From Arenicola marina (taxonomy: Eukaryota > Annelida > Polychaeta > Arenicolidae): 64,000 nt of DNA. This document shows, piece by piece, positions 701-64,000 of the stretch (the stretch's first letter is position 1; every line of letters begins with the position of its first letter). The notes beneath the pieces were generated by a model that ran no database searches, was not told the origin of the DNA, and saw only the letters and a list, made by a program, of their open reading frames with translations. The translations under genes were made by a program, and so were the position numbers. The stretch is taken from assembly GCA_964019135.1 (NCBI GenBank), contig OZ025255.1:26079708-26143707 (forward strand), written 5' to 3'.

Positions 701-2860
701 CTTGTGGTAAAAAGCCTGCTACTGCGGCCCTTTTATATTAGTTTGTTGTTCTTTTTTTTTCCTTTCTTTTTTTGTGGAAGAGGGTTGTGGGGGTGAGTGG
801 GTAGGTATCTGTCTTTATCTACTTGTGAAGTTACACTTTATGTTAGCATATAATCTTCGGCTTCTGCTATTGTCTAGGTTATTTTTGTCCAAGTTTACGC
901 TAGATGCATACCTCTGGACAAACATTACACTACTACTACTGCTAACTGTGGTTACGGCGCAGTTTGCAAGACAAACTCATATAGAAGAAATTGAAACACA
1001 AATAGAGCGGCCAAGTAGATTGTCTGACTAATTCTGACAAGTGGTGACATTGCAGCACGCACAAGAAAATGCAATTGTTTATATCGGACAACAACCGAGC
1101 GAAAGATGTTTTTTTGTAATGCGCTGTATAATATATGATTTTTTGATAATGAAGGGAGGAAAACGTTTTGTATGTGGTGTTATCGAAAGGCGTCTTAGAT
1201 TTCCCAATTCAGTCTGCTTTGCTTAAACTGAAACAGCCCCTTTAATGTTGACAAGTTGCCTAGTTTATGTGACATGAAAGATTACCATTCACATTTAGCG
1301 GAACAGTATCATTTGCGTCAAAGTCAATGTGAAATAGGACCAAAACTAAGCTATGTGTACCGCGTCACCGATTTGTGGGTAGTCCACAAGTTTATTTCAT
1401 ATTTTTAAAGATGCAAAGCCGGCCTCAGGCAATTAATGTTAGTAAGTACAGATTTTGCTTCCACTAATCAAGCCATAAAATCACACAAATTCCGAAGCTT
1501 AAATGATTTGAGATGGAAGAAGCGGCTGGAACAGCTTTGAGGTATACCGGGTGAGAAAAAAATTTGTAGGCTTGGGGCCGAAATAAATAAAAAAAGAAAA
1601 ACAGGTCCGAGGCTCCTGGCATGACTATATTCCCAGCACATCGCGACTGGTCTTCGCATTCAGGGCCCGACAACCACGCCACCCGACAATACTCACCCCG
1701 GGGGTCTGAAGCTTATTCGATTTGTTTGCAACGTTATATTAAACAGTCTAACGCAACAATTTTGGTGAGCCCTGAGTGAGAATAAACGAAATTCTGGCAT
1801 AACTTTGGCCTTATGGTAAGTGCAAGGGAGGAGGTGGGGGTACACACGGATTTGCTACCACACACGCCTTTTGACAGTAAAAACCGACGAATTCAGCGAT
1901 AAATGGATGAGCGATTTCTTTCGATGAGAACTAGGTCCCCTCATTCGAAAAGCCGTGGGCGCAGACAGGGCAGGCCGGCCAGTGACCATCGAGTTTGTCC
2001 ATCGTGGGGTGTCTTTTTCTGTGGCTAGAGCCCTTCGTACTGCTGGCCAAAAAATAGTGGCCGTTTTACTTTCCCTCATAAACACCCACCGGCCTTTGCG
2101 AAAGTGTCCTACGGCATTGGGATTACAGATTCATTTGAGGGTCTCGGCGTAAACATAATATATGTCCACTGGTGATCGAGCCATGCAGCAAGCTTCCGGC
2201 AGGCGAGTTGAATCCACGCAATACTCACGCCACTTGTGAGGCCCGTCTTGAGATGTCTGAATCAACGGGGAAACGTTGGTACAGTTAGTAGCGTCGACAT
2301 TTTGTGACGGCAGCAGCGTTAACACAGCCTGTGTGCATGCACCCTGAGTGGAGGGCGGGATGCGGGAAGGGGTGCGGCGGGGGGGGGGGGAGTAAAAGAC
2401 CCACACCTAGGCACTTTGGGGCTGAAGCAGACTTCGCGCCGTCCGCGTTACACGCCCGGTTGCGTGCCATAGGCCTCGCAGTCGGTCACTTCCGGTGGAG
2501 AGTGGAACTAGCACAGTAGGGGGCGTTGTTGTCACGGCAGGCAAACTGACGTAGACACCCTACCGGCAGGACATGGTATAATGGATGGGCGGCCAGTGAG
2601 TGGGTCACCAGACTGTGGGTGGTTGGATGTGAACCTTGGGGGCTTTGAGAGTTTTGACGTATAGGTGGGTGTGGACTTTTGAGTGGATGGCTGCGAGACT
2701 CAATGTGTGGATTTCCCCATTCTACACACATTACTCTCTCAAGAAAACCTGGGTGGGCTGCGTTAAAGACTGAGTACTTTGTACGGCATTGACGTCAAGC
2801 TACTGATCAAACCGCAATGCAATGATAATCGCAATGCAAAAACATATATATTCCTCTTTC
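700..2860. other. Intergenic stretch, no supported gene
   Basis: Only short unconvincing ORFs occur on both strands. A G-run lies near 2380-2392. The stretch ends in a pyrimidine tract followed by CAG at 2871-2873, which looks like a splice acceptor, immediately before the 45-bp repeat. Confidence 0.5.
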
Positions 2861-2873
2861 CCCGTCCTCGCAG

Positions 2874-5165
2874 CTAACATTGGACACATCTCACGAGATA
2901 AACGACGGTAGCTCAAACCGCCACAGATCAAACGGTCGTAGAACAAGCGACTTTAGCTCAAACCGCCGCAGATCAAACGGTCGTAGAACAAGCGACTTTA
3001 GCTCAAACCGCCGCAGATCAAGCGGTCGTAGAACAAGCGACTTTAGCTCAAACCGCCGCAGATCAAACGGTCGTAGAACAAGCGACTGTAGCTCAAACCG
3101 CCGCAGATCAAACGGTCGTAGAACAAGCGACTTTAGCTCAAATCGCCGCAGATCAAACGGTCGTAGAACAAGCGACTTTAGCTCAAACCGCCGCAAATCA
3201 AACGGTCGTAGAACAAGCGACTTTAGCTCAAACCGCCGCAGATCAAACGGTCGTAGAACAAGCGACTTTAGCTCAAACCGCCGCAGATCAAACGGTCGTA
3301 GAACAAGCGACTTTAGCTCAAACCGCCGCAGATCAAACGGTCGTAGAACAAGCGACTGTAGCCCAAACCGCCTCAGATCAAACGGTCGTAGAACAAGCGA
3401 CTTTAGCTCAAACCGCCGCAGATCAAACGGTCGTAGAACAAGCGACTTTAGCTCAAACCGCCGCAGATCAAACGGTCGTAGAACAAGCGACTTTAGCTCG
3501 ACCCGCCGCAGATCAAACGGTCGTAGAACAAGCGACTGTAGCTCAAACCGTCGCAGATCAAACGGTCGTAGAACAAGCGACTTTAGCTCAAACCGCCGCA
3601 GATCAAACGGTCGTAGAACAAGCGACTTTAGCTCAAACCGCCGCAAATCAAACGGTCGTAGAACAAGCGACTTTAGCTCAAACCGCCGCAGATCAAACGG
3701 TCGTAGAACAAGCGACTTTAGCTCAAACCGCCGCAGATCAAACGGTCGTAGAACAAGCGATTTTAGCTCAAACCGCCGCAGATCAAACGGTCGTAGAACA
3801 AGCGACTTTAGCTCAAACCGCCGCAGATCAAACGGTCGTAGAACAAGCGACTTTAGCTCAAACCGCCGCAGATCAAACGTTCGTAGAACAAGCGACTTTA
3901 GCTCAAACCGCCGCAGATCAAACGGTCGTAGAACAAGCGACTTTAGCTCAAACCGCCGCAGATCAAACGGTCGTAGAACAAGCGACTTTAGCTCAAACCG
4001 CCGCAGATCAAACGGTCGTAGCACAACCGACTTTAGCTCAAAACGCCGCAGATCAAACGGTCGTAGAACAAGCGACTTTAGCTCAAACCGCCGCAGATCA
4101 AACGGTCGTAGAACAAGCGACTTTAGCTCAAACCGCCGCAGATCAAACGGTCGTAGAACAAGCGACTTTAGCTCAAACCGCCTCAGATCAAACGGTCGTA
4201 GAACAAGCGACTTTAGCTCAAACCGCCGCAGATCAAACGGTCGTAGAACAAGCGACTTTAGCTCAAACCGCCGCAGATCAAACGGTCGTAGAACAAGCGA
4301 CTTTAGCTCAAACCGCCGCAGATCAAACGGTCGTAGAACAAGCGACTGTAGCTCAAACCGCCGCAGATCAAACGGTCGTAGAACAAGCGACTGTAGCTCA
4401 AACCGTCGCAGATCAAACGGTCGTAGAACAAGCGACTTTAGCTCAAACCGCCGCAGATCAAACGGTCGTAGAACAAGCGACTTTAGCTCAAACCGCCGCA
4501 AATCAAACGGTCGTAGAACAAGCGACTTTAGCTCAAACCGCCGCAGATCAAACGGTCGTAGAACAAGCGATTTTAGCTCAAACCGCCGCAGATCAAACGG
4601 TCGTAGAACAAGCGACTTTAGCTCAAACCGCCGCAAATCAAACGGTCGTAGAACAAGCGACTTTAGCTCAATCCGCCGCAGATCAAACGTTCGTAGAACA
4701 AGCGACTTTAGCTCAAACCGCCGCAGATCAAACGGTCGTAGAACAAGCGACTTTAGCTCAAACCGCCGCAGATCAAACGGTCGTAGCACAACCGACTTTA
4801 GCTCAAAACGCCGCAGATCAAACGGTCGTAGAACAAGCGACTGTAGCTCAAACCGCCGCAGATCAAACGGTCGTAGAACAAGCGTCTTTAGCTCAAACCG
4901 CCGCAGATCAAACGGTCGTAGAACAAGCAACCTAAGCTCAAACCGCCGCAGATCAAACGGTCGTAGAACAAGCGACTGTAGCTCAAACCGCCGCAGATCA
5001 AACGGTCGTAGAACAAGCGACTGTAGCTCAATCCGCCGCAGATCAAACGGTCGTAGAACAAGCGACTTTAGCTCAAACCGCCGCAGATCAAACGGTCGTA
5101 GAACAAGCGACTGTAGCTCAAACCGCTGTACATCAAACGGTCGTAGAGAAAACGGCAATGGCTAA
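2874..5165 (+). CDS. Possible terminal exon encoding 15-residue basic repeats
   Basis: From a good acceptor-like site (pyrimidine tract then CAG at 2871-2873), one frame stays open through the whole minisatellite to TAA at 5163-5165, about 763 codons. It repeats a 15-residue peptide, consensus SNGRRTSDFSSNRRR, which is rich in Arg, Ser and Asn and resembles an RS-like low-complexity protein. There is no ATG at its head, so it would need an upstream exon. I see none, and no AATAAA follows closely. A second forward frame encodes an Ala-rich, helix-like repeat (QTVVEQATLAQTAAD). It continues beyond the repeat as EKTAMAKAAANVSATNQ but has a stop at 4934-4936 and an upstream stop at 2899. Substitutions between units are mostly nonsynonymous in every frame. 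The likeliest reading is a non-coding minisatellite that happens to be open, so this coding call is weak. Confidence 0.2.
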   Translation, partial: LTLDTSHEINDGSSNRHRSNGRRTSDFSSNRRRSNGRRTSDFSSNRRRSSGRRTSDFSSNRRRSNGRRTSDCSSNRRRSNGRRTSDFSSNRRRSNGRRTSDFSSNRRKSNGRRTSDFSSNRRRSNGRRTSDFSSNRRRSNGRRTSDFSSNRRRSNGRRTSDCSPNRLRSNGRRTSDFSSNRRRSNGRRTSDFSSNRRRSNGRRTSDFSSTRRRSNGRRTSDCSSNRRRSNGRRTSDFSSNRRRSNGRRTSDFSSNRRKSNGRRTSDFSSNRRRSNGRRTSDFSSNRRRSNGRRTSDFSSNRRRSNGRRTSDFSSNRRRSNGRRTSDFSSNRRRSNVRRTSDFSSNRRRSNGRRTSDFSSNRRRSNGRRTSDFSSNRRRSNGRSTTDFSSKRRRSNGRRTSDFSSNRRRSNGRRTSDFSSNRRRSNGRRTSDFSSNRLRSNGRRTSDFSSNRRRSNGRRTSDFSSNRRRSNGRRTSDFSSNRRRSNGRRTSDCSSNRRRSNGRRTSDCSSNRRRSNGRRTSDFSSNRRRSNGRRTSDFSSNRRKSNGRRTSDFSSNRRRSNGRRTSDFSSNRRRSNGRRTSDFSSNRRKSNGRRTSDFSSIRRRSNVRRTSDFSSNRRRSNGRRTSDFSSNRRRSNGRSTTDFSSKRRRSNGRRTSDCSSNRRRSNGRRTSVFSSNRRRSNGRRTSNLSSNRRRSNGRRTSDCSSNRRRSNGRRTSDCSSIRRRSNGRRTSDFSSNRRRSNGRRTSDCSSNRCTSNGRRENGNG
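2901..5152. repeat. 45-bp minisatellite, about 50 units
   Basis: The unit is 45 bp and contains GATCAAACGGTCGTAGAACA followed by a segment reading AGCGACTTTAGCTC. The register never slips: equivalent bases at 2941 and 5101 are exactly 48 units apart. Units differ by recurrent substitutions (CTTTA/CTGTA, CCGCAG/CCGCAA, CCGCCGC/CCGCCTC, ACGGTC/ACGTTC). A set of variants recurs in the same order in 3535-4060 and 4385-4830, so a block was duplicated within the array. Because 45 is a multiple of 3, three of six frames are free of stops in the consensus unit. Confidence 0.95.
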
Positions 5166-5179
5166 AGCTGCCGCTAACG

Positions 5180-5930
5180 TAAGTGCAACCAATCAAACCG
5201 CAGCATGTATATACAGATCACAGCATATTCGGTCGGCGAGCTAAACACGATTAGATCGCCAACCCGCGGTACAAGATAACTTCGCCGATAAAGCTCCTAT
5301 AGTAATAGGGTACTTGCCGTTAGCAGATACTTCCCTAACTTTGGATGAAAAGTAGTAATGGAGCCTTCGCATCGTACCATGATACAACAACAAAGTGCAT
5401 GGATGTGAATTATAGACATTATCATGGCAAATTGACTGACTGCCAATGAATATCTGACAGTCAAAATTTATCGCTGTCCCTGAGCATTCTCTTCGAGTCC
5501 ATGAACTGCACTGATGCTGCTGGATTACTATCTAATCTTATTGATATACCTCATCTACTTTCCCGTTGGCGTGCACTTACTGAAGACCGTCGGTGTCTAG
5601 GTTTTTTATGTAGTTCTCCGGTTACGTAGTAACGGATACAGAGCGTAATCGTTGAAAAGAATGTCGTATTTGATAAATCATGATTGGTACTAATTGTGCG
5701 AGTTACTGCTGGATCCAGTACTGCATGGCAGTCTATACCCCGCATCAGTACTCAGAGCTATCTAGAATTCGTTGGATTAATACACCCGAACCTTTTATGG
5801 AGATGTGATGGTGAGTGAGGGCGATGGGTTGTAGCAATTAAATACACATTTTGGATTGACAACTGCGGCAAGAAATGAGTTCATAAGACAATCAGCAAAT
5901 TGGCCTTCCAATTAAGGTATCAGTGTCTGT
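5180..5930. other. Spacer between two minisatellites, no gene seen
   Basis: A strong donor-like GTAAGT lies at 5179-5184 right after the 45-bp array. The rest is unique sequence without a supportable ORF, RNA gene or repeat. Confidence 0.5.
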
Positions 5931-8900
5931 AAGGACAACGCCGTCAGTCACTGTCAGGGTCTGTAATGACAACGCCGTCAGTCACTGTCAGGGTCTGTAA
6001 TGACAACGCCGCCAGTCACTCTCAGGGTCTGTAAGGACAACGCCGTCAGCCACTGTCAGGGTCTGTAAGGACAACGCCGTCAGTCACTGTCAGGGTCTGT
6101 AATGACAGCACCGTCAATAACTGTCAGGATCTGTAAGGACAACGCCGTCAGTCACTGTCAGGGTCTGTAAGGAAAACATCGTAAATCACTGTCAGGATCT
6201 GTAATGACAGCGCCGTCAGTCACTGTCAGGATCTGTAAGGACAACGCCGTCAGTCACTGTCAGGGTCTGTAAGGCCAACACTGTCAGTCACTGTCAGGGT
6301 CTGTAAGGACAACGCCGTCAGTCACTGTCAGGGTCTGTAAGGACAACGCCGTCAGCCACTGTCAGGGTCTGTAAGGACAACGCCGTCAGTCACTGTCAGG
6401 GTCTGTAAGGCCAACACTGTCAGTCACTGTCAGGGTCTGTAAGGACAACGCCGTCAGTCACTGTCAGCGTCTGTAAGGACAACGCCGTCAGTCACTGTCA
6501 AGGTCTGTAATGACAACGCCGTCAGTCACTGTCAGGGTCTGTAATGACAACGCCGTCAGTCACTCTCGGGGTCTGTAAGGACAACGCCGTCAGCCACTGT
6601 CAGGGTCTGTAAGGACAACGCCGTCAGTCACTGTCAGGGTCTGTAATGACAGCACCGTCAATAACTGTCAGGATCTGTAAGGACAACGCCGTCAGTCACT
6701 GTCAGGGTCTGTAAGGAAAACATCGTAAATCACTGTCAGGATCTGTAATGACAGCGCCGTCAGTCACTGTCAGGATCTGTAAGGACAACGCCGTCAGTCA
6801 CTGTCAGGGTCTGTAAGGCCAACACTGTCAGTCACTGTCAGGGTCTGTAAGGACAACGCGGTCAGTCACTGTCAGGGTCTGTAAGGACAACATCGTCAGT
6901 CACTGTCAGTGTCTGTAAGGACAACACTGTCAGTCACTGTCAGGGTCTGTAGGTACAACGCCGTCAGGATCTGTAAGGACAACGCCGTGAGTCCCTGTCA
7001 GGGTCTGTAAGGACAACGCCGCTAGTCACTCTCAGGGTCTGTAATGACAGCGCCGTCAATCACTGTCAGGATCTGTAAGGACAACGCCACCAGTCACTGT
7101 CAGCGTCTGTAAGGACCACGCCGTCAGTCACTGTCAGGATCTCTAAGGACAACGCCGTCAGTCACTGTCAGTAGCTGTAAGGACAACACTGTCAGTCACT
7201 GTCAGGGTCTGTAGGGACAACGCCGTCAGGATCTGTAAGGACAACGCCGTTAGTCACTCTCAGGGTCTGTGATGACAGCGCCGTCAATCACTGTCAGGAT
7301 CTGTAAGGACAACGCCAACAGTCACTGTCAGCGTCTGCAAGGACAACGCCGTCAGTCACTGTCAGGGTCTGTAAGGACAACGTCGTCACTCACTGTCAGT
7401 TTCTGTAAGGACAACACCGTCAGTCACTGTCAGGATCTGTAATGACAGCGCCGTCAGTCACTGTCAGGATCTGTAAGGACAACGCCGTCAGTCACTGTCA
7501 GGGTCTGTAAGGACAACGCCGTCAGTCACTGTCAGGGTCTGTAAGGACAACGTCGTCAGTCACTGTCAGTTTCTGTAAGGACAACAGCGTCAGTCACTGT
7601 CAGGATCTGTAATGACAGCGCTGTCAGTCACTGTCAGGATCTGTAAGGACAACGCCGTCATTCACTGTCAGGGTCTGTGAGGACAACGCCGTCAGTCGCT
7701 GTCAGGGTCTGTAAGGACAACGCCGTCAGTCACTGTCAGGATCTGTAAGGACAACGCCGTCAGGATCTGCAAGGACAACGCCGTCAGTCACTGTCAGGGT
7801 CTGTAAGGACAACGCCGTCAATCACTGTCAGGATCTGTAAGGACAACGCCGTGAGTCCCTGTCAGGGTCTGTAAGGACAACGCCGTCAGTCACTGTCAGG
7901 GTCGGTAATGACAGCGCCGTCAATCACTGTCACGATCTGTAAGGACAACGCCATCAGTCACTGTCAGCGTCTGTAAGGACCACGCCGTCAGTCACTGTCA
8001 GGATCTGCAAGGACAACGCCGTCAGTCACTGTCAGGGTCTGTAATGACCACGCCGTCAGTCATTGCCAGGATCTCTAAGGACCACGCCGTCAGTCATTGT
8101 CAGGATCTGTAAGGACAACGCCGTCAGTCACTGTCAGAGTCTGTAAGGACAACGCGGTCAGTCACTGTCAGGATCTGTAATGACAGCGCCGTCAGTCACT
8201 GTCAGGATCTGTAAGGACAACGCCGTCAGTCACTGTCAGGGTCTGCAAGGACAACGCCGTCAGTCACTGTCAGGATCTGTAAGGACAACGCCGTCAGTCA
8301 CTGTCAGGGTCTGTAAGGACAACGCCGTCAGTCACTGTCAGGATCTGTAATGACAGCGCCGTCAGTCACTGTCAGGATCTGTAAGGACAACGCCGTCAGT
8401 CACTGTCAGAGTCTGTAAGGACAACGCGGTCAGTCACTGTCAGGATCTGTAATGACAGCGCCGTCAGTCACTGTCAGGATCTGTAAGGACAACGCCGTCA
8501 GTCACTGTCAGGGTCTGCAAGGACAACGCCGTCAGTCACTGTCAGGATCTGTAAGGACAACGCCGTCAGTCACTGTCAGGGTCTGTAAGGACAACGCCGT
8601 CAGTCACTGTCAGGATCTGTAATGACAGCGCCGTCAGTCACTGTCAGGATCTGTAAGGACAACGCCGTCAGTCACTGTCAGGATCTGTAAGGACAACGCC
8701 GTCAGTCACTGTCAGGGGCTGTAAGGACAACGCCGTCAGTCACTGTCAGCGTCTGCAAGGACAACGCCGTCAGTCACTGTCAGGGTCTGCAAGGACAGCG
8801 CCGTCAATCACTGTCAGGATCTGTAAGGACAACGTCGTCAGTCACTGTCAGCGTCTGTAAGGACAACGCCGTCAGTCATTGTCAGGATCTGTAAGGACAA

Positions 8901-9808
8901 CGCCGTCAGTCACTGTCAGCGTCTGCAAGGACAGCGCCGTCAATCACTGTCAGGATCTGTAAGGACAACGTCGTCAGTCACCGTCAGCGTCTGTAAGGAC
9001 AACGCCGTCAGTCATTGTCAGGATCTGTAAGGACAACGCCGTCAGTCACTGTCAGCGTCTGCAAGGACAGCGCCGTCAAGCACTGTCAGGATCTGTAAGG
9101 ACAACGCCGTCAGTCGCTGTCAGGGTTTGTAAGGACAACGCCGTCAGTCACTGTCAGGGTCTGCAAGGACAACGCCGTCAGTCACTGTCAGGATCTGTAA
9201 GGACCACGCCGTCAGTCACTGTCAGGGTCTGTAAGGACAACGCCGTCAGTCACTGTCAGGGTCTGCAAGGACAACGCCGTCAGTCACTGTCAGGATCTGT
9301 AAGGACAACGCCGTCAGTCACTGTCAGGGTCTGCAAGGACAACGCCGTCAGACACTGTCAGGATCTGTAAGGACAACGCCGTCAGTCACTGTCAGGGTCT
9401 GCAAGGACAACGCCGTCAGTCATTGTCAGGATCTCTAAGGACAACGCCGTCAATCACTGTCAGGATCTGTAAGGACAACGCCGTCAGTCACTGTCAGGGT
9501 CTGTAAGGACAACGCCGTCAGCCACTGTCAGGGTCTGTAAGGACAACGCCGTCAGTCATTGTCAGGATCTCTAAGGACAGCGCCGTCAGTCACTCTCAGG
9601 GTCTGTAAGGACAACGCCGTCAGTCACTGTCAGTGTCTGTAAGGACAACATCGTAAATCACTGTCAGGATCTGTATGGCCAATGCCGTCAACCACTGTCA
9701 GGGTCTGTAATGACAACGCCGTCAGTCACTGTCAGGGTCTGTAAGGACATAGCTGACAATCACTGTCAGAATCTGTAAGGACAACACCGTCAATTTCTGT
9801 CAGCTTCA
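5930..9808. repeat. 34-bp minisatellite, about 114 units
   Basis: The unit is 34 bp, running GGGTCTGTAAGGACAACGCC then GTCAGTCACTGTCA, with many point variants and occasional short units. It has higher-order structure. A distinctive run of variants around 6104 recurs at 6648 (544 bp, 16 units). Another recurs from 8119 to 8401 (about 8 units). A four-unit block near 8794 recurs 136 bp later. The unit is not a multiple of 3 and carries stops, so it is not coding. It lacks the unique spacers of a CRISPR array. Confidence 0.97.
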
Positions 9809-14430: not shown

Positions 14431-14667
14431 ATTATTTGAAGTAAGCCGGTTGCCCCGGTGCGGTAAAAGATGCAAATGTACCAAATTTATGGTGAATTTA
14501 TCCGCAAATTGGTAAAAAAGGCTTCATAAAATGATTGCTGAAGCAAATCTGGCACATATCGATATTAATACTGGTCTTTCAAGTCGGACAAGAAGCTCAT
14601 TAATACTGAATTAAAAAAGCTCAAACCCATATCGTATCGTATAGTTCTTTCGTCTTCACCTTACAGT

Positions 14668-15232
14668 TACTGACGTCGTGATCACAGTGTCTGTCGTCGT
14701 GATTACAGTGTCTGACGTCGTGATCACAGTGTCTGACGTCGTGATCACAGTTACTGACGTCGTGATCACAATGTCTGACGTCGTGATCACAGTTACTGAC
14801 GTCGTGATCACAATGTCTGACGTCGTGATCACAGTTACTGACGTCGTAATCACAGTGTCTGACGTCGTGATCACAGTTACTGACATCGTGATCACAGTAT
14901 CTGACATCGTGATCACAGTGTCTGACGTCGTGATCACAGTGTCTGACGTCGTGATCATAGTTACTGACGTCGTGATTACAGTGTCTGAAGTCGTGATCAC
15001 AGTGTGCGACGTCGTGATCACAGTGTCTGACGTCGTGATCACAGTGTCTGACATCGTGATCACAGTTTCTGAAGTCGTGATCACAGTGTGCGACGTCGTG
15101 ATCACAGTGTCTGACGTCGTGATCACAGTGTCTGACATCGTGATCACAGTGTCTGACATCGTGATCACAGTGTCTGACATCGTGATCACAGTGTCTGACG
15201 TTGTGATCACAGTATCTGACGTATCTATTGCT
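14668..15232. repeat. 21-bp minisatellite, about 27 units
   Basis: The 21-bp unit contains GTGATCACAGTGTCTGACGT plus one base. Each unit carries the palindrome TGATCA and a TGACGTC half-CRE-like word. As 21 is a multiple of 3, open frames appear on both strands (VITVSDV on plus; SDTVITT and HCDHDVR on minus). None has a supported start context or flanking exon, so I treat it as non-coding. Confidence 0.95.
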
Positions 15233-19174: not shown

Positions 19175-20800
19175 AGCGATGACACTGATGGACGCTTTAT
19201 TGACCACTTGATAGAGGCTACATTGATCACTTGATGGACGCTACATTGACCACTTCATGGACGCTACATTGACCACTTGATGGAGGCTACATTGACCACT
19301 TGATGGACGCTACATTGACCACTTGATGGACGTTACATTGACCACTTGATGGACGCTACATTGACCAATTGATGGACGCTATATTGACCACTTGATGGAC
19401 GCTACATTGACCACTTTATGAAGGCTACATTGACCACTTGATGAAGGCTACATTGACCACTTGATGGCGGCTTCATTGACCACTTGATGGACGCTACATT
19501 GACCACTTGATGGACGCTTTATTGACCACTTGATGGACGCTACATTGACCACTTGATGGACGCTACATTGACCACTTGATGAAGGCTACATTGACCACTT
19601 GATGAAGGCTACATTGATCACTTGATGGAGGCTACATTGACCACTTGATGGCGGCTTCATTGACCACTTGATGGACGCTACATTGACCACTTGATGGACG
19701 CTTCATTGACCACTTGATGGACGCTACATTGACCACTTGATGGACGCTACATTGACCACTTGATGAAGGCTAAATTGACCACTTCATGAAGGCTACATTG
19801 ACCACTTCATGGACGCTACATTGACCCCTTGGTAGACGCTACATTGACCACTTGATGGAGGCTACAATGACCACTTGATGGAGGCTACATTGACCACTGC
19901 ATGGACGCTACATTGACCACTTCATGGACGCTACATTGACCACTTGATGGAGGCTACGTTGACCATTTGATGGACGCTACATTGACCACTCGATGAAAGC
20001 TACATTGACCACTCGATGAAAGCTACATTGGCCACTTGATGGAAGCTACATTGACCACTTGATGGACGCTACATTAGCCACTAGATAGAGCCTACATTGA
20101 CCACTTGTTGGACGCTACATTAGACACTAGATAGAGCCTACATTGACCACTTGATGGCGGCTTCATTGACCACTTGATGGACGCTACATTGACCACTTGA
20201 TGGACGCTACATTGACCCCTTGGTGGACGCTACATTGACCACTTGATGGAGGCTACAATGACCACTTGATGGAGGCTACATTGACCACTTGATGGAGGCT
20301 ACATTGACCACCTGATGGACGCTACATTGACCACTTGATGGACGCTACATTGACCACTTGATGAAGGATACATTGACCACTTGATGGACGCTACATTGAC
20401 CACTTGATGGAGGCTACAATGACCACTTGATGGAGGCTACAATGACCACTTGATGGAGGCTACATTGACCACTTGATGGAGGCTACATTGACCACCTGAT
20501 GGACGCTACATTGACCACTTGATGGACGCTACATTGACCACTTGATGAAGGATACATTGACCACTTGATGGACGCTACATTGACCACCTGATGGACGCTA
20601 CATTGACCACTTGATTGACGTCCATTGACCACTTGATGGACGCTACATTCACCACTTGATGGAGGGTACATTGACCATTTAATGGACGCTACATTGACCA
20701 AATGATGGACGCTACATTCATCACTTGATGGACGCTACATTGACCACCTGATGGACGCTACATTGACGCCTTGATGGACGCTACATTAAAAACTTGATGG
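19175..20800. repeat. 23-bp minisatellite, about 70 units
   Basis: The unit is GACCACTTGATGGACGCTAC plus ATT. Frequent variants are GGAGGCTAC, GAAGGCTAC and GGCGGCTTC. Higher-order structure is present: the GGCGGCTTC variant recurs at 19461, 19645 and 20151 (8 and 22 units apart), and a TTGACCCCTTGG block recurs 391 bp (17 units) apart. ORFs here are artefacts of the repeat. Confidence 0.97.
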
Positions 20801-21290
20801 ATGCTGCATTGACCAGTTCATGCACGCTACATTTACCAGTTGGTAGAGACTATATTGAACAGCGGATGGACGCCACACTTGCCGGTTGCTTTATGCTACA
20901 TTGGTCAATTAATGAATACTGCATTGATAACTTGATGAACGCTACTTTCTCCGGTTGGTAGAAGCACAATTGACCGTTTTATTCACGAAATATATTTACT
21001 AATGAATGGCGGCTACATGGACCACATGGTGGAGATAGATTTATTACTGTATTGACCAGTTATAAGCATAATATTGTTCAGTTAATGCACGCTACACTGG
21101 TTAGACTACATTGACTAGGGAACAGTCGCTACATTGACCAATTGATGGAGTCTGGTTTAACCAGTTGAAGTCTGGTTTAACCAGTTGATGGAGACTAATT
21201 AGACCAATGGATGGAGTATGGTTTGACCAGTTGATTGAGTCTGGTTTGATCACTTGATGGAATGGTTTGACGTAGGGTTGGTAATTTGAT
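20800..21290. repeat. Decayed tail of the 23-bp array
   Basis: Unit-like words (ATTGACCAATTGATGG, TTTAACCAGTTGA) persist with increasing divergence and irregular spacing to about 21280. This is the usual decay pattern at the edge of a satellite. Confidence 0.7.
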
Positions 21291-22447: not shown

Positions 22448-23302
22448 TCTCGCATGTGCAAGTATTGTTTATTATGTATAATGCATAATTTGCTATGCAT
22501 AACGAACTTAAGCTCATCTTTTATAAACCCACAAATTGTTAATTGTAGTAAATGGTAAGCGTGGGCCAATAGACAGATCCAGGGGGTCAATCATTCTCTG
22601 ACGTCACTGTTGCTTCTTGTACTATTTTTCCAGTTTTTATAAATGAAACAGTAATACAAGAATGTTGAAGGTATCAAAGTGACTGAGCAATGTAGAATCC
22701 GACTGTCAAGTGTAGAACGGTGATGACGCAATATGACGACGTGAACTAAACCTTATACATCACCTCTTTACCTAAACCAATCTAAATAAATATTGGGACT
22801 TAGTCTTAAGATATGGGCGTCTGTTTAGAAGGAAGTCAATGTCTGTCAGTCTAATCAGTCGTTCCGTACTTTTCCTGTCATAGTCAAATCAATAAGTGTC
22901 TGTCTTTCGCGCCAAAACCCCTGTCGTGCTGCTAATCACGTGACACGACCAACCCCGAACCCACTCGTACATAGTCTGGAGTTTCCGTAGGTTTTACCTT
23001 TCGCCGCACCACTACACTTTTATCCAATCATGTGATAAAAAGTCTTCCACGTGCGTTATCTCAGACAAACAAGTCAGACAAACAAAACAGCATGTCACTT
23101 TCTTGTTCTTGTCAGTTTCAGAGATGAGTACTTCTCACTTGTACCTACCATCCGCTATGATTGTCAATTTCATACTCACGATTGAGGAAACAGAACTCAA
23201 TCGTGGGCGGGGCTTAGTATCGGAGTATGGATCGGTCTATATTGGTCGCCCTGGCATAGAAGAACGACCTAATGTGTACTAGTTAAAGAACGAGCTGGAG
23301 TG

Positions 23303-36537: not shown

Positions 36538-38596
36538 AAGTTGTGTAAAGTTATGACCTTCTTGTAAATATCGATATAAGCAAAGCGAGCGGTTACGATG
36601 GAATTAGCCCTAAAATGTTAAAGGAGGCTGGCTCGACCATATGTAAACCATTAATGAAACTTTTTAATATGTGTCTGTTTGAATGTAGAATGCCAGTTTT
36701 ATGGAAAAGAGCGAATGTAGTTCCCATTTACAAGAAAGGAAGTCGTAGTCATTTAAGCAATTACCGTCCTATATCTCTCTTAAGTTGCACCGGGAAGTTA
36801 CTCGAACGCATTATATTTAGACATACTTTCAACTACCTTCGCGACAACAACATATTGTGTAGATTCCAATCAGGATTTATCCCCGGAAATAGTACAGTCA
36901 ATCAACTAGCGGAATTGTATCATGTTTTTAGTGAGGCGTTGGATAAGAAGAAAGATGTTAAAGTTGTATTTTGTAATATATCCAAAGCGTTTGATAGGGT
37001 ATGGCACAAAGGTCTCCTGAAGAAATTAAGCGGTATAGGTATATCTGGCAATTTACTTTGTTGGTATGAGGACTATATGAGGGATCGATATCAGAGGGTT
37101 ACCATCAAGGCTGAGGCGTCCGAGTGGGGTCTTATAAATGCGGGGGTACCACGGGATTCAGTTCTTGGACCGCTATTATTTCTTATTTATATAAATGACA
37201 TAACTGAAGGTCTGGAATCCAACATACGGCTGTTCGCAGATGACACCACACTTTACATTATCTCAGGGGACAATATTGATAGCAATGATATTTTATCTGA
37301 AGATTTATTGAAATTAGAATGCTGGGCTGACAAATGGTTTGTTACATTTAATGCCTCGAAAACAAAGACTATGGTAATATCCAATAAGTTATCTGACACT
37401 CAGATGGAGTTATGCATGGGTTCACAGAGACAGGTCATCCATGATCATAAACATCTCGGACTAACGCTAAACAGCAAATTATCTTGGTCTCCTCACATTA
37501 ATGAAATATATCATAAAGTTATGAGAAGAGTGGATATGCTCTCGCGATTAAGGTATAAGTTGGGTCGTAGGTCCCTGGATATTATGTACAAAAGCTTCAT
37601 TAGACCGTCAATGGAATATGCTTGAGTGGTATGGGACGGCTGTTCGCAATCAGACTCGGATCGATTAGAATCGGTGCAGCTGAGGGCGGGTAGGTTGGTT
37701 TGTGGAGCTATTAAATATACAAGCTATCTCCATATTTATAATGAACTGGGATGGGAGACACTGGCCACGCGAAGGGAGAGGTTTAAACTATTGCTTTTTC
37801 ACAAACTATTGTATACTAGAGTTCCAGAATATCTGTTTAATTTAATTCCGCCAACGGTCGATTCTAGAACTTCCTATGCTCTACGAAACTCTAATACAAA
37901 CAGTGTCACACCTATCAGGGCAAGATTAACTACGTTTTACAATTCTTTTGTTCCCAGTACAATTAGAAGGTGGAACGAACTGCCCGCTCATATTCGAACA
38001 ACTACCGATTTCAATGAGTTTAAAAGACAACCTTGTAAGAAAACAGACGTCCACAGTTTAAGGAAGCTTTATTATCTAGGAAGTCGGAAGACGAATGTCA
38101 TTCACGCGCGACTAAGGATGAATTGCAGTACTTTAAATGCTCATCTATTTCATATGCATATTGTCGACAGCCCGCGGTGCAACTGCGGTGCTGCTAGCGA
38201 AGATAGCGTTCATTTTTTCTATTCTTGTCCAACATACACAAATGAGCGCGAAATACTGATGGGAAAAATAGTTACTCATACCCCGATGTCACTAGGCACA
38301 CTTCTTTTTGGTAACCCATCCTTGTCTTACGATACAAATGTAGAACTCTTCACAGCTGTACATAAATATATCGAAAATAGTAAACGCTTTAAATAGACAT
38401 CAAGTGTACCTATTGCTGCGTGGTTAAATTATCGAACTATTGGCCAACATAGTGTTAATTCTTTGAATCTGAATTTACTGGTGTGTGTGTGTGTGTTATA
38501 TTATATATTATTATTATGTGCAAAAGGAATTAATATAGGCCTTGCCTGTTTTCCGATTGTGAAATAAAAATATGTTTAAACCAAGTTGTGTAAAGT
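36538..38596 (+). mobile_element. Jockey/CR1-like LINE nested in the Tx1-like LINE
   Basis: An exact 14-bp duplication AAGTTGTGTAAAGT flanks the insert (36538-36551 and 38583-38596), so the inserted DNA is 36552-38582. It is 5'-truncated, starting inside the RT domain (LVNIDISKASGYDGISPKML). The 3' end is complete, with AATAAA near 38562-38572. Its only stop in over 600 codons of RT and C-terminal region is TGA at 37623-37625. Confidence 0.95.
36552..38396 (+). pseudogene. LINE reverse transcriptase ORF with C-terminal Cys-rich domain
   Basis: RT motifs in order: NYRPISLLSCTGKLLERI (36762-36815), QSGFIPGNSTVNQL (36870-36910), motif A VFCNISKAFDRVWH (near 36966-37007), motif B GVPRDSVLGPLLFLIYIND (near 37143-37200), motif C LFADDTTLY (37230-37256), then the thumb to SFIRPSMEYA. 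A TGA interrupts EYA-VVWDG at 37623-37625. The frame continues with the thumb (LESVQLRAGRLVCGA), WNELPAHIR, and a Cys/His C-terminus (PRCNCG, HFFYSCP), ending at 38396. Two departures from consensus matter. In motif A the first, catalytic Asp (normally LDISKAFD) is Asn (AAT, 36975-36977). In motif B the usual QGS is RDS. With the stop these indicate a dead copy, though otherwise young looking. Confidence 0.9.
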
Positions 38597-59105: not shown

Positions 59106-59326
59106 GTACATATAGATAATATTTCAAAGTGACCATGCATCTTGCTGAATTTTTATTTTCTTATTGGATCAAACGTCGACAAAAAAAATCGGTATCCTAT
59201 AACTGGGACAGCGTAACATCTGTACTGAGTTGATGTGAATTGACTCCACCGTATCTTATCCGTTGTGGGAGACGAAGTAAAACTTGGAAAGCGGAACACG
59301 CAGACAGATTTTTCCATTAGCTCCAA

Positions 59327-59334
59327 TATATAAG
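59327..59334 (+). promoter_or_regulatory. TATA box of the EF-hand gene
   Basis: TATATAAG lies 67 bp before the ATG. With a start site about 30 bp downstream this leaves a 5'UTR of roughly 40 nt. Confidence 0.7.
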
Positions 59335-59400
59335 TCCGGACAGAAAAGCACGTAGCTATCTTTACCAACAAGCAGACAACAGACAAGAGTATATCTCACC

Positions 59401-60732
59401 ATGCAGTCCATCGCCTTCGTTCTTCTTCTCGTCGCTGCTACGCATGCGTAAGTCTACTAAGCCTGTATCTAGCTTTCTACAAAACCACACCGATAATATT
59501 GAAGTACCGCCCTAGTATAAGATCTGCCTACAAATTTGAATATCGTCGTGTTCTTTATCATCAATCTTCAGGCAGGACTGTCTGAACTGTGACGGTCTGG
59601 CCGTCCGTGAAGACCGCATGTCTTGTCGCGACTTCTGCCAACTGGACGTCGACTGAAATGGCGAAGCGACGACCGCGGAGTTCATTGATGTTTACAACAG
59701 CTGGGGCTGCCCCACGACTGGTACGCCCCTTGTCAAGTAGATTACAAACTAAATTAATACAGAGCTCACTGTACCGTTAGTGCATTGCAAATGCTAAACC
59801 ACTTATCAATTAATTATCACTTAGCGAGGATTTACGTTTAAATAACATTTAGTAACCTGTAGAAAAATGAAAATATTTGATGAAACCGCCAGCAGACACA
59901 ATTCCAGCTCGATGTCGAACTTAACGACATTTAATAGCTTTAAAAGGTATACGTTTAAATACCTGCGGTGAGATATGTTTGTTTCTTGGCCTTCTTACCC
60001 AGGCTGCAACGAGGCTCAGTGGACGGCCGCCGTCCAGCCCGGCTCGCAGATGTGTGACGGTGAGGCCACCGCCTTCTTCAATCGTCTCTCCGTCGCCGAC
60101 TCCAGCAGTGACCCCACCAAGGGGGAGGAGACTGACATGGTGTCCTGGCACTCTAACATCTTGTTCATCGCCGGCGCCAGTAAGTGTGGGCCATAGTCAC
60201 TCCATCAATCAATCTGTATGAAATGTATGCCAACTTGGTAAAATCATCACGTGGCTGCTCGGATCGTAATCTTGGTTTCACCGTTGTATTTCCGACTCGG
60301 CCTCATCATACGGCAATGATAAAAAAGACTAATATTTAATATCCTGTCAAGAAAAGCTATCCTTGCTCGAGGTCCATACTTATTGACATGTGTTCTGCTT
60401 TAGGTATCCTGGATTACCCCGCTTACCAGGCCTACTTCGTCGTGGTAAGTTTACACCGGCCTGCACACGAGTCTGCATGTCGCCCCAACATACCCCCAAA
60501 ATGGTATGCTGAAAGAATTTCATTATTTTGAATGATCGAACTATTTTATTGCTTATTTTGAAGGCAACGAAGAGCGAAGAGTAAACAAAAAGAACAAACC
60601 AATGACGATAACAAACAAACCATGAACCTGGTCCTTTGTGTAAAACGATGTTAGTTGCTTAATAGACTGCGTCTTGTTTCCTTCCAGCTATACTCTGATA
60701 TCGGCGACCCTACCTGCCCGATCGGATTCTAA
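59401..60732 (+). pseudogene. Secreted Cys-rich protein with one EF-hand loop; in-frame TGA
   Basis: Five exons join in frame with GT-AG introns: 59401-59447, 59572-59720, 60003-60179, 60404-60444, 60688-60732. The start has a good context (CACCATGC). The 152-codon product has a signal peptide (MQSIAFVLLLVAATHA, cleavage before QDC) and eight Cys (19, 22, 34, 38, 62, 67, 83, 148), which could form four disulfides. Residues 41-53 read DVD*NGEATTAEF, a canonical EF-hand loop with Asp at 1 and 3, Asn at 5, Gly at 6 and Glu at 12. The star is TGA at 59654-59656, in the variable loop position 4. All splice sites, the rest of the frame, a TATA box and a poly(A) signal are intact. The family is not recognised; a secreted Ca-binding role is inferred from the loop. 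The TGA may be a recent nonsense allele (for instance CGA or GGA to TGA), a sequence error, or recoding. The 3'UTR is too short to hold an evident SECIS, so selenocysteine is unlikely. Confidence 0.85.
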
Positions 60733-60768
60733 GTGATGGCCACCTTGCTCGATGTAGCATTAGGTCAC

Positions 60769-60774
60769 AATAAA
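60769..60774 (+). terminator. Poly(A) signal of the EF-hand gene
   Basis: AATAAA lies 36 bp after the stop codon, giving a very short 3'UTR. Confidence 0.75.
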
Positions 60775-60789
60775 CGTATATTATCTTAA

Positions 60790-63170
60790 GCCTTTTTCAT
60801 GACTTTATTCGCCATGCCGCGACTTTTGAATTCTACACCGCATATTACCCGCAAGAAATGTACATCAAACATACACATACATACCCGATAAAATATATTG
60901 AGTAAATAAGTTATCCTTGCAAGAACCAATTGACCGGAAATCAGACAAAGCAGCTTTCTTTGACACATATTTAACACTACATTACATGTTTCAAGATCCA
61001 ACTATGAGTATATATGTCAATCATTCTGAAAAGGTAAAATACATGTGTACGGCCATGTAGGGTGTTGCACTTCGATACCAAACTTCGTGCCACCCTTCTG
61101 TGAAGGGAACTTGAACATGCATCTCAAATCTTAAAGCTGTAAGACTGGACGCAAAGGCATGACATTTCAAAGGCAGATATATCAATCGAGGGAAGGATAT
61201 GTCCCTACTTTTAGCGAGGCTTCGATTATTAAAACCAGTGTGTTGTCTAAATGAGCTTGTATGAAATATATTATCTAATTGATAGGTTAATATATCAAGT
61301 GCAATAGATTATTACTATTACTCGGGACGACTGCGTAAAAAACGGGCTGATTCCGATGAGCTGTACCGGTCAAGACACAGCGACGTCGCTTCCGGTGGCA
61401 TAGTGGCCATTTTGTGACCGACCTAGACCAGAATTCAATTTAACCATAGCGCCCGTTAGCGGGGCGTTAGGCAATTTTACTGGCCCGACATCAAGCTGTG
61501 CAGCCTTCCCACCATTTTGTGAGCCTGTCGCCTTCTTTACACCATAGTATATCGGTATATCGTGACCAAGAAACGGCACGGGTAGCTAGGCAACTAAGCG
61601 GCTAGGCGGGCCATTTACATCAAGAACCACAATTATTTTGTTCGTGACGTCATGTTTCATTGTTCCACGCCATGTACCTATGGCAACGATTGTCTATTGA
61701 AAGGGCCAACGGGCCGTTTGAGTCAGATTACAGGACTTTGCTGCCTTCATATTTAATGATATTGTACTAGTTAACACGACCATCAACTCGTAATAAGAAA
61801 AGGATTTTCCACCCGACATATGTGCTCGACTTCCTTGTCCCGAAACAAATATGGATATACACACAATGTATGATGTTAAACAAGTGATATATGCTTTTCC
61901 AATGCGGTCCATAAACCACAGTTGGTCCATAAATCAAATATCGATCGGCGATCTCATCTTGGCCCCAATGTGCATTTTGTCTTATTTTGGCGAACTTAAT
62001 CTAAGCATGAATCCATAACAGTGCAACACATCAGGCCTGCTTAACAGCGAGTGTAAGCGAGCTCTTTAATCTGACATGCGTGCATATACGTACAAAATAA
62101 AGAAACTGTTTTCAAAATCCTTCTCAAAGCCTAGAACATGTAGTTTGCTTATCTGCCCGCATAAGACGTTTTTCGAGTTTGCAGTAAAATTTTATGCCAC
62201 CAACCATGTCATCAAACAAAAATTGAAGTTCTAATATTAAGCTTCAATATTAATAATCAAATTATCTACAATAAAAGGGTTACACTTCAAACAATACACG
62301 GAGTTCGTCAGTTCTGCGCTAAACGATCGACCTTGCCACTCTCCCAGCGGGAAAACTGTTGCTCGGCCATAATATATTGACTGTTTCCGCTCTCACTGAC
62401 TGGTTCCCGTCGCAGTCACGAAACGGGTTTTCTTAGTTTCATGGTTTCATCCATTTTTTGTAATTGTATTAATATATTCACTTAACTATCCTGCAGTTTC
62501 GCGTCGGTTTTGTCCGATCAATGAACTCTTAACGTTTACTCAGTAATTCGTCACTCATCACTTCAAATGTTTTGTTAAATGAAATAAACACATTTCCGTT
62601 TGCTTAGACATATATTTTATGTATCCACCGCAATTACAAATTTAAAATACATAGTGTCATAGCCTATATGACTAACAATCTTGTTCGGTTCAACTTATTC
62701 AATAAACAGTTCTTTCCCGCCAAAAATATGTCTGGAATTATAAAATTTATATTTGATGAGATAATTAGTGCAAGAATTATTTAATGCTAACACTTAATTA
62801 TCACTAAAATTGGTCTAAACCTGGTCAGCATCCCTAAAATGGTCAAATAAAGCGGTGAACACTCGCAACTCTATCATGTGCTGTATGTGGCTCCTAACTA
62901 ACGTCCTGGGAACATGTGATGTAACCGGTTGGACAATGTACATTTATTGTCCGTCTTGCCATGACCAATCATGTTGCTGACATATTTACATGTACTTAAT
63001 CTCAAAGGGGGGGGACGCCGTCAAAAGTGAACAGCTTCAACATATATCAAAGGCCAAAGGCCACGTTCGGGGCCTAGTTAAACGATTTATCGACAATGAT
63101 AAATCTTGATCATTTGTTTCCATGATGTCAGACGTATATATATATATATAATTACTGAGTAAACTGACTA
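60790..63170. other. AT-rich intergenic stretch, no gene seen
   Basis: Unique AT-rich sequence on both strands without supportable ORF, RNA gene or repeat. Confidence 0.5.
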
Positions 63171-63175
63171 AACAC

Positions 63176-63227
63176 ATTCACCAAATACACATATATATAG
63201 ATATATCTGTTTGTGTATTTGTTGAAT
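63176..63227. repeat. Short hairpin inverted repeat beside a TA microsatellite
   Basis: ATTCACCAAATACACA (63176-63191) pairs with TGTGTATTTGTTGAAT (63212-63227) at 15 of 16 positions. The 20-nt loop is itself TA-rich. A (TA)n tract lies at 63136-63150. Confidence 0.85.
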
Positions 63228-63239
63228 GACTTCCCTACA

Positions 63240-64000
63240 AATGACAGCTGTGAAGTTTAACGCTGTTGGCCACAACAATGTAAAAACAGCTAAGAATGCC
63301 CTATTATGTGTTGTTCATATAGCATTGGTTTGTATTGCAAGCGATTTCTGCGACCGTGATGCTTTAATCTTTCTTTTCCGGCAGGGTGCCTAAATTAACT
63401 ATTGCTTATAATTAGATTAATCAGTTGGAGCTTTCGACCTTGGTCAGTGAAGAGGTGGAGATGTTAACAACACACGCAGTCCATTTTCCAGTCAGAAGAC
63501 ACCATCTAACGAGGGCCGGATTGGCGTGGGCCGCTACAAACACATTCACATGATTTAAATACTTCAGCATGTTGCTGATTTGTAACCTTGCCTTGCTTGC
63601 GGTCAAGAAGATTTCAGCGGCCGAGTATGCTACGCGGAGCTGGGGGAGCCTTTCTGGACGCCTCTACCAATGCCTTGCTATGCCATTTAACATGAAACAG
63701 ACGGATGGACTTAACAAGGTGGCATGGTGTAAGTGGAAAGGTGATCCGAACGGCAAGATGCGGGTTTTCCGCTTAATGAATCGTAATCGCTTCCAGAAGG
63801 GTGCCCAAGGTGGCTGAGGGAGCATGGTGTTCTTTCTCATCGTGTACGGCATACAGATACATTTTATTATTCATCAGCGGCCCCCGGAGGGCCGCCACAC
63901 GACGTTACTGGGCTACTCTGCAGCCATTTCCTGCCCCCACAACCATTACATAGTAATAGCTATGTTGTATCTGCTGACATAGATTTTAATATATACCCCA
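63240..64000. other. Window end, one doubtful small ORF
   Basis: An 82-codon ORF on plus (63569-63817) begins MLLICNLALLAVKKISA, which could be a signal peptide, and contains WCKWKGDPNGKMRVFRLMN. I do not recognise it, no exon partners are visible, and an overlapping minus ORF is equally long. I do not claim a gene. Confidence 0.3.

Follow-up and report, generated by a model that had tools for sequence, protein, structure and literature searches.

Unprocessed (duplicated) pseudogenes keep their introns, stand at a duplicate locus and carry a disabling codon. The EF-hand is recognised as a helix-loop-helix with a D-x-D/N-x-D/N-G loop and an acidic residue at loop position 12, and a 12-residue calcium loop is found in EF-hand proteins such as the 'calcium-binding protein' of PDB entries 1jfj and 2m7n, presumably from Entamoeba. 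A gene of the annelid Arenicola marina resembles both: it has kept its introns, it has a duplicate on another contig, its exon 2 shares the 12-residue calcium loop and one putatively disabling codon falls within that loop. The gene lies in a window of 64,000 nucleotides (contig C8, positions 26079708–26143707), the whole stretch of DNA that was analysed; coordinates without a prefix are those of the window, and all features of the gene are on the forward strand. The assembly comprises 867 Mb in 762 contigs. Among the matches listed from the annelid EF-hand and invertebrate pseudogene literature, no title dealt with this gene family.

Structure of the C8 gene

The gene on C8 (59401–60732) consists of five exons that join into 459 nt, i.e., 153 codons, with a single internal TGA at codon 44. 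It lies within a block (59191–61505) shared with contig C18 (C18:26529786–26532076; L021:4287–6577) at 81.6% identity. A TATA-like box, ATATATAAGT, is present at 59326–59335 as a putative promoter element, and its letters are identical in the C18 copy. Exon 1 (59401–59447; C18 counterpart L021:4485–4531) carries the start codon and a signal-peptide-like stretch, MQSIAFVLLLVAATHA, and ends at a gtaagt donor; the signal-peptide look of residues 1–16 was judged by eye. Exon 2 (59572–59720) codes for five cysteine residues and the EF-hand helix-loop-helix, and the TGA (59654–59656; C8:26139361–26139363) occupies position 4 of the calcium loop, 64 nt upstream of the exon 2/3 junction. As read from the sequence, exon 3 (60003–60179) contributes two cysteine residues and a degenerate second EF-hand-like stretch, exon 4 spans 60404–60444, and exon 5 (60688–60732) carries the eighth cysteine and the terminal TAA. 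An AATAAA poly(A) signal follows at 60769–60774, as it does in the C18 copy. All four introns are of the GT-AG type, their borders having been read from the sequence, and the eight cysteine residues fall in the same eight columns as those of the C18 copy. The first-pass annotation had described a five-exon gene in which only the TGA was amiss, and this description was confirmed: the frame, the eight cysteine residues, the splice sites and the TATA-like and AATAAA signals are all present. Judged by the exon matches on C18 (E 1.8e-28 and 3.4e-21), the reading frame is not a chance ORF.

The loop of the C8 gene reads DVD*NGEATTAE, and those of its paralogs are of the kind DVDGNGNATPSE. Pfam EF-hand models matched four of the five intact paralogs scanned, all below the cut-off (E 0.01–0.17), and two of the five also matched unrelated Pfam models below the cut-off (e.g., HalOD2, E 0.0089 and 0.1). 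The EF-hand_7 pair model spanned residues 34–113 of the C18 protein, likewise below the cut-off, and the C8 protein, with the TGA read as X, gave no Pfam match at E ≤ 1. When a profile of six paralogs was compared with PDB, EF-hand proteins were found, with a best E of 9.4e-6 (columns 10–46). The EF-hand label given earlier is fair, although every Pfam match to an EF-hand model stayed below its cut-off.

Paralogs of the C8 gene

A search for paralogs in the same species, suggested by the first-pass annotation, found family copies on C9, C17, C18 and C19 beside C8. At E ≤ 1, the protein search of the assembly yielded 29 exon-sized matches on these five contigs, counting the C8 gene itself; with a C9 paralog as the query, there were 29 matches at E ≤ 0.01, again on these contigs. 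When the assembly was searched with the DNA of the C8 locus, only two matches were obtained, C8 itself and the C18 copy, which is the nearest relative of the gene (82% DNA identity over 1.69/1.71 kb, introns included). The C18 paralog (L021:4485–5840) resembles the C8 gene in its five exons, intron positions, eight cysteine residues, signal-peptide-like start and TATA-like and AATAAA signals. It differs in the absence of an internal stop and in exon 2, which is shorter in C8 by one whole codon, in frame; the encoded amino acid differs at 24 further codons, 4 of them preceding the TGA and 20 following it.

Three C9 copies are degenerate, with conserved cysteine residues missing and the frame changed near the end of exon 2. 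Exon 2 of one C9 copy was not found in the ∼1.3 kb searched upstream, nor was that of one C17 copy in a search by motif only. The region C9:25.884–25.919 Mb (L022–L025) is built of a tandem unit of about 10 kb. L022, L023 and L024 hold one degenerate family gene each, and in L023 and L024, as also in L025, exons 2, 3 and 5 of the neighbour of the degenerate gene look intact; no exon 2 was found for this neighbour in L022. It seems that a decayed copy was amplified in this array together with its neighbour. Two C9 paralogs have a short tandem repeat directly 3′ of exon 2 (L029:948–1865 and L030:3883–4245), in which the end of that exon (WGCP) occurs many times over. As read from these sequences, the family of the C8 and C18 genes is one that gains and loses copies.

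Repeats and other features of the window and genome

About 0.85 kb of a unit found in the window also lies upstream of the C18 paralog. The unit is about 5 kb long and is repeated roughly five times at 23017–50703. Because of this shared 0.85 kb, the duplication that gave the C8 and C18 copies may have included the 5-kb array. Three frames from the array gave no Pfam match at E ≤ 0.1. A retroelement reverse-transcriptase frame is present at 36549–37625 (Pfam RVT_1, E 1.1e-27). At 2829–5165, a 45-nt tandem repeat (49.8 copies, 96% matches) contains an open frame of 778 residues made of SSNRRRSNGRRTSDF repeats; since the unit is divisible by three, long open frames occur in its other frames as well. 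Long minisatellite arrays occupy 5920–9803 (34-nt unit), 14663–15222 (21-nt unit) and 19186–20945 (23-nt unit). Elsewhere in the assembly, the mitochondrial contig C762 has the order cox1-cox2-cox3-nad6-cob-atp6-nad5-nad4L-nad4-(gap)-nad1-nad3-nad2, the gap being where the rRNAs would lie; cox1 alone was named by family search and the other genes by eye. We take this order to be the annelid ground pattern. An uncontrolled search of the assembly for Bindin, a sea urchin protein, came back empty.

A stop codon private to the C8 gene among the copies read

Sixteen copies of exon 2 were read, that of C8 and 15 others, three of which are degenerate; for two copies on C19 and one on C17, the TGA column was identified by eye in the translation. 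At this column, all 15 other copies have a sense codon, coding for glycine in 14 and glutamate in one (C9f), and for cysteine in none. Among the copies whose sequence was read, the stop at loop position 4 is private to the C8 gene.

By far the most probable explanation is that the C8 gene is a fairly young loss of an ordinary kind: a duplicate disabled by a nonsense codon that is either fixed or still segregating. A paralog with retained introns lies in the same genome on C18, and relative to this paralog, which has no internal stop, the C8 gene carries a putatively disabling lesion, the TGA at codon 44. This reading is favoured by the absence of an internal stop from the five-exon C18 paralog and by the TGA being the sole stop at its column in 16 copies; against it, the C8 protein matches the family almost as closely as the C18 protein does. 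According to the proposed course of events, the C8 and C18 genes would have arisen by a duplication that took in introns and flanking DNA, and a nonsense codon would later have been gained in the calcium loop of the C8 gene. The C8 message, if made, would then yield the signal peptide and 27 residues only. The stop precedes an exon junction by 64 nt and is followed by three more exons, and under the general rule on stops ahead of exon junctions the message would be expected to undergo nonsense-mediated decay. The loss was probably tolerated, because the C18 and C9 genes remain and could buffer it. We infer that the animal does carry the stop, that the function of the gene is abolished and that its paralogs are redundant with it.

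Age of the stop

The K80 distance between the C8 and C18 copies was 0.115–0.178 in seven of the eight noncoding segments and 0.314 in intron 2, which places the C8 branch near 0.07 neutral substitutions/site (half of 0.13–0.16). For the coding sequences, the NG86 method gave a dN of 0.100 and a dS of 0.188. Neutral decay from the C18 coding sequence was simulated in 6000 runs per depth, with 23 frame-changing indels per 261 substitutions as counted by hand in the noncoding alignment; missense damage is ignored in this simulation, and the in-frame loss of a codon from exon 2 is not scored as a lesion. The probability of a single stop or none, with every other kind of lesion absent, was 0.53 at a depth of 0.01 neutral substitutions/site, 0.28 at 0.02, 0.07 at 0.04, 0.037 at 0.05 and 0.011 at 0.07. 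The death of the C8 gene is therefore compatible with any time from just now to about 0.045 (interpolated, 5% level). As death along the whole branch gives a probability of 0.011, the stop probably arose after the C8/C18 duplication, and for part of the C8 branch the gene was probably alive. Measured against the age of the duplication, this bears out the expectation in the first-pass annotation of greater damage in a long-dead pseudogene. A very recent null allele, one of the options in that annotation, is more than the simulation shows, as depths up to about 0.045 are compatible at the 5% level.

A sub-case of the nonsense-disabled duplicate is a segregating null allele, with the stop on the sequenced haplotype and a sense allele common in the species. 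The light damage suits such a young allele, which we regard as a real possibility, though not the likelier state of affairs. The DNA search of the assembly, with C8 and C18 as its only matches, did not find a second copy of the C8 locus from the other haplotype. This single copy says little on segregation, however, because haplotigs are usually purged from assemblies.

Selective constraint on the C8 protein

Six sequences (C8, C18 and four C9 copies as distant outgroups) were fitted to a codon model with the TGA treated as missing. When all other branches shared one omega, that of C8 was 2.19 against 0.15 elsewhere (p 0.008), and an omega of 1 for C8 was accepted in the same model (2dlnL 0.16, p 0.69). 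When C18 was given its own omega, the values were 0.43 for C8, 0.47 for C18 and 0.14 elsewhere, and an omega of 1 for C8 was not rejected (p 0.54). The C9 outgroups are too distant for synonymous changes to be placed, so that the omega evidence is weak and the loss is not dated by dN/dS. Protein evolution on the C8 branch is compatible with relaxed constraint.

In exons 2–3, with the TGA column and the missing codon excluded, four amino-acid changes were resolved as C8-derived and five as C18-derived, with six unresolved. The family profile score over the same exons was 153 bits for C8 (read with X) and 162 bits for C18. Two of the C8-derived residues, Ser and Gly, stand at columns 81 and 107, which are hydrophobic or aromatic in seven of the seven outgroup paralogs. 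The changes between C8 and C18 number 4 nonsynonymous to 5 synonymous upstream of the TGA and 20 to 8 downstream, an excess that is not significant (p 0.23).

Alternative explanations

The main rival is a base-call or assembly error, in which case the animal would have a sense codon and an intact C8 gene. The rest of the gene is in order, the family fit is good and a single position is at issue, all of which would suit an error. However, the assembly is chromosome-scale, with 44.4 Mb in C8, and what is at issue is a substitution that lies in no long homopolymer run; at such sites, consensus errors are generally rare. An error is accordingly unlikely, and it keeps some weight because the C8 gene was picked out for the TGA itself.

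Recoding of the TGA as selenocysteine, or its read-through, is very improbable. The genome does seem to use selenocysteine, as three of the seven glutathione-peroxidase matches have one in-frame TGA at the expected site, and the C8 reading frame goes on past its TGA. A home-made SECIS pattern also gave one strict or two loose hits within 3.3 kb downstream, but the strict pattern gave three hits in 20 shuffles as well. At five peroxidase loci, the loose pattern gave 0–3 candidates each, of which one lies within a coding exon; such a scan has no power to discriminate. In selenoproteins, the TGA is expected to align with cysteine in homologues, which is the case in none of the 15 other copies (Gly 14, Glu 1). 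Rfam SECIS models gave no match at E ≤ 10 over 59200–64000, although the positive control was weak, SECIS_1 being found downstream of only one of two peroxidase loci (E 5). That sub-threshold match (L044:834–894, minus strand; 19.6 bits) follows a glutathione-peroxidase exon and has the orientation of the gene. A genome-wide search for SECIS_1, in which 150 of 12680 candidates were scored, found none. As for read-through, known leaky stop contexts carry C after TGA, and the base here is A. The stop-codon recoding that the first-pass annotation had listed as an option is disfavoured by the sense codons in 15 of 15 other copies, the lack of cysteine at the column and, more weakly, the lack of an Rfam SECIS match at E ≤ 10 in 59200–64000. 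It is just as improbable that the TGA is translated, by read-through, non-canonical recoding or editing, to give a secreted EF-hand protein in which an unusual or variable loop residue tunes calcium binding in one paralog only.

Least probable of all is RNA editing of the message, by which the UGA would become a sense codon. The exon-2 region folds no more stably than its shuffles (z −1.19; 23/200 fold as well), and in the minimum-energy structure the A of the TGA has no pairing partner, which does not resemble an editing duplex.

Comparison with known systems

As a nonsense-disabled duplicate, the C8 gene would show a member of a family of gain and loss at the stage of one disabling codon, and it would mean little beyond annotation; the stop would be of wider importance only if read-through were shown by RNA or protein data. 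The secreted EF-hand-like family, which reached no Pfam cut-off, may deserve a model of its own. The calcium-binding protein of PDB entries 1jfj and 2m7n differs from this family, which looks secreted and cysteine-rich, has a degenerate second EF-hand and falls below the Pfam cut-offs. Typical unprocessed pseudogenes differ from the C8 gene as well: it shows hardly any damage other than its one putatively disabling codon.
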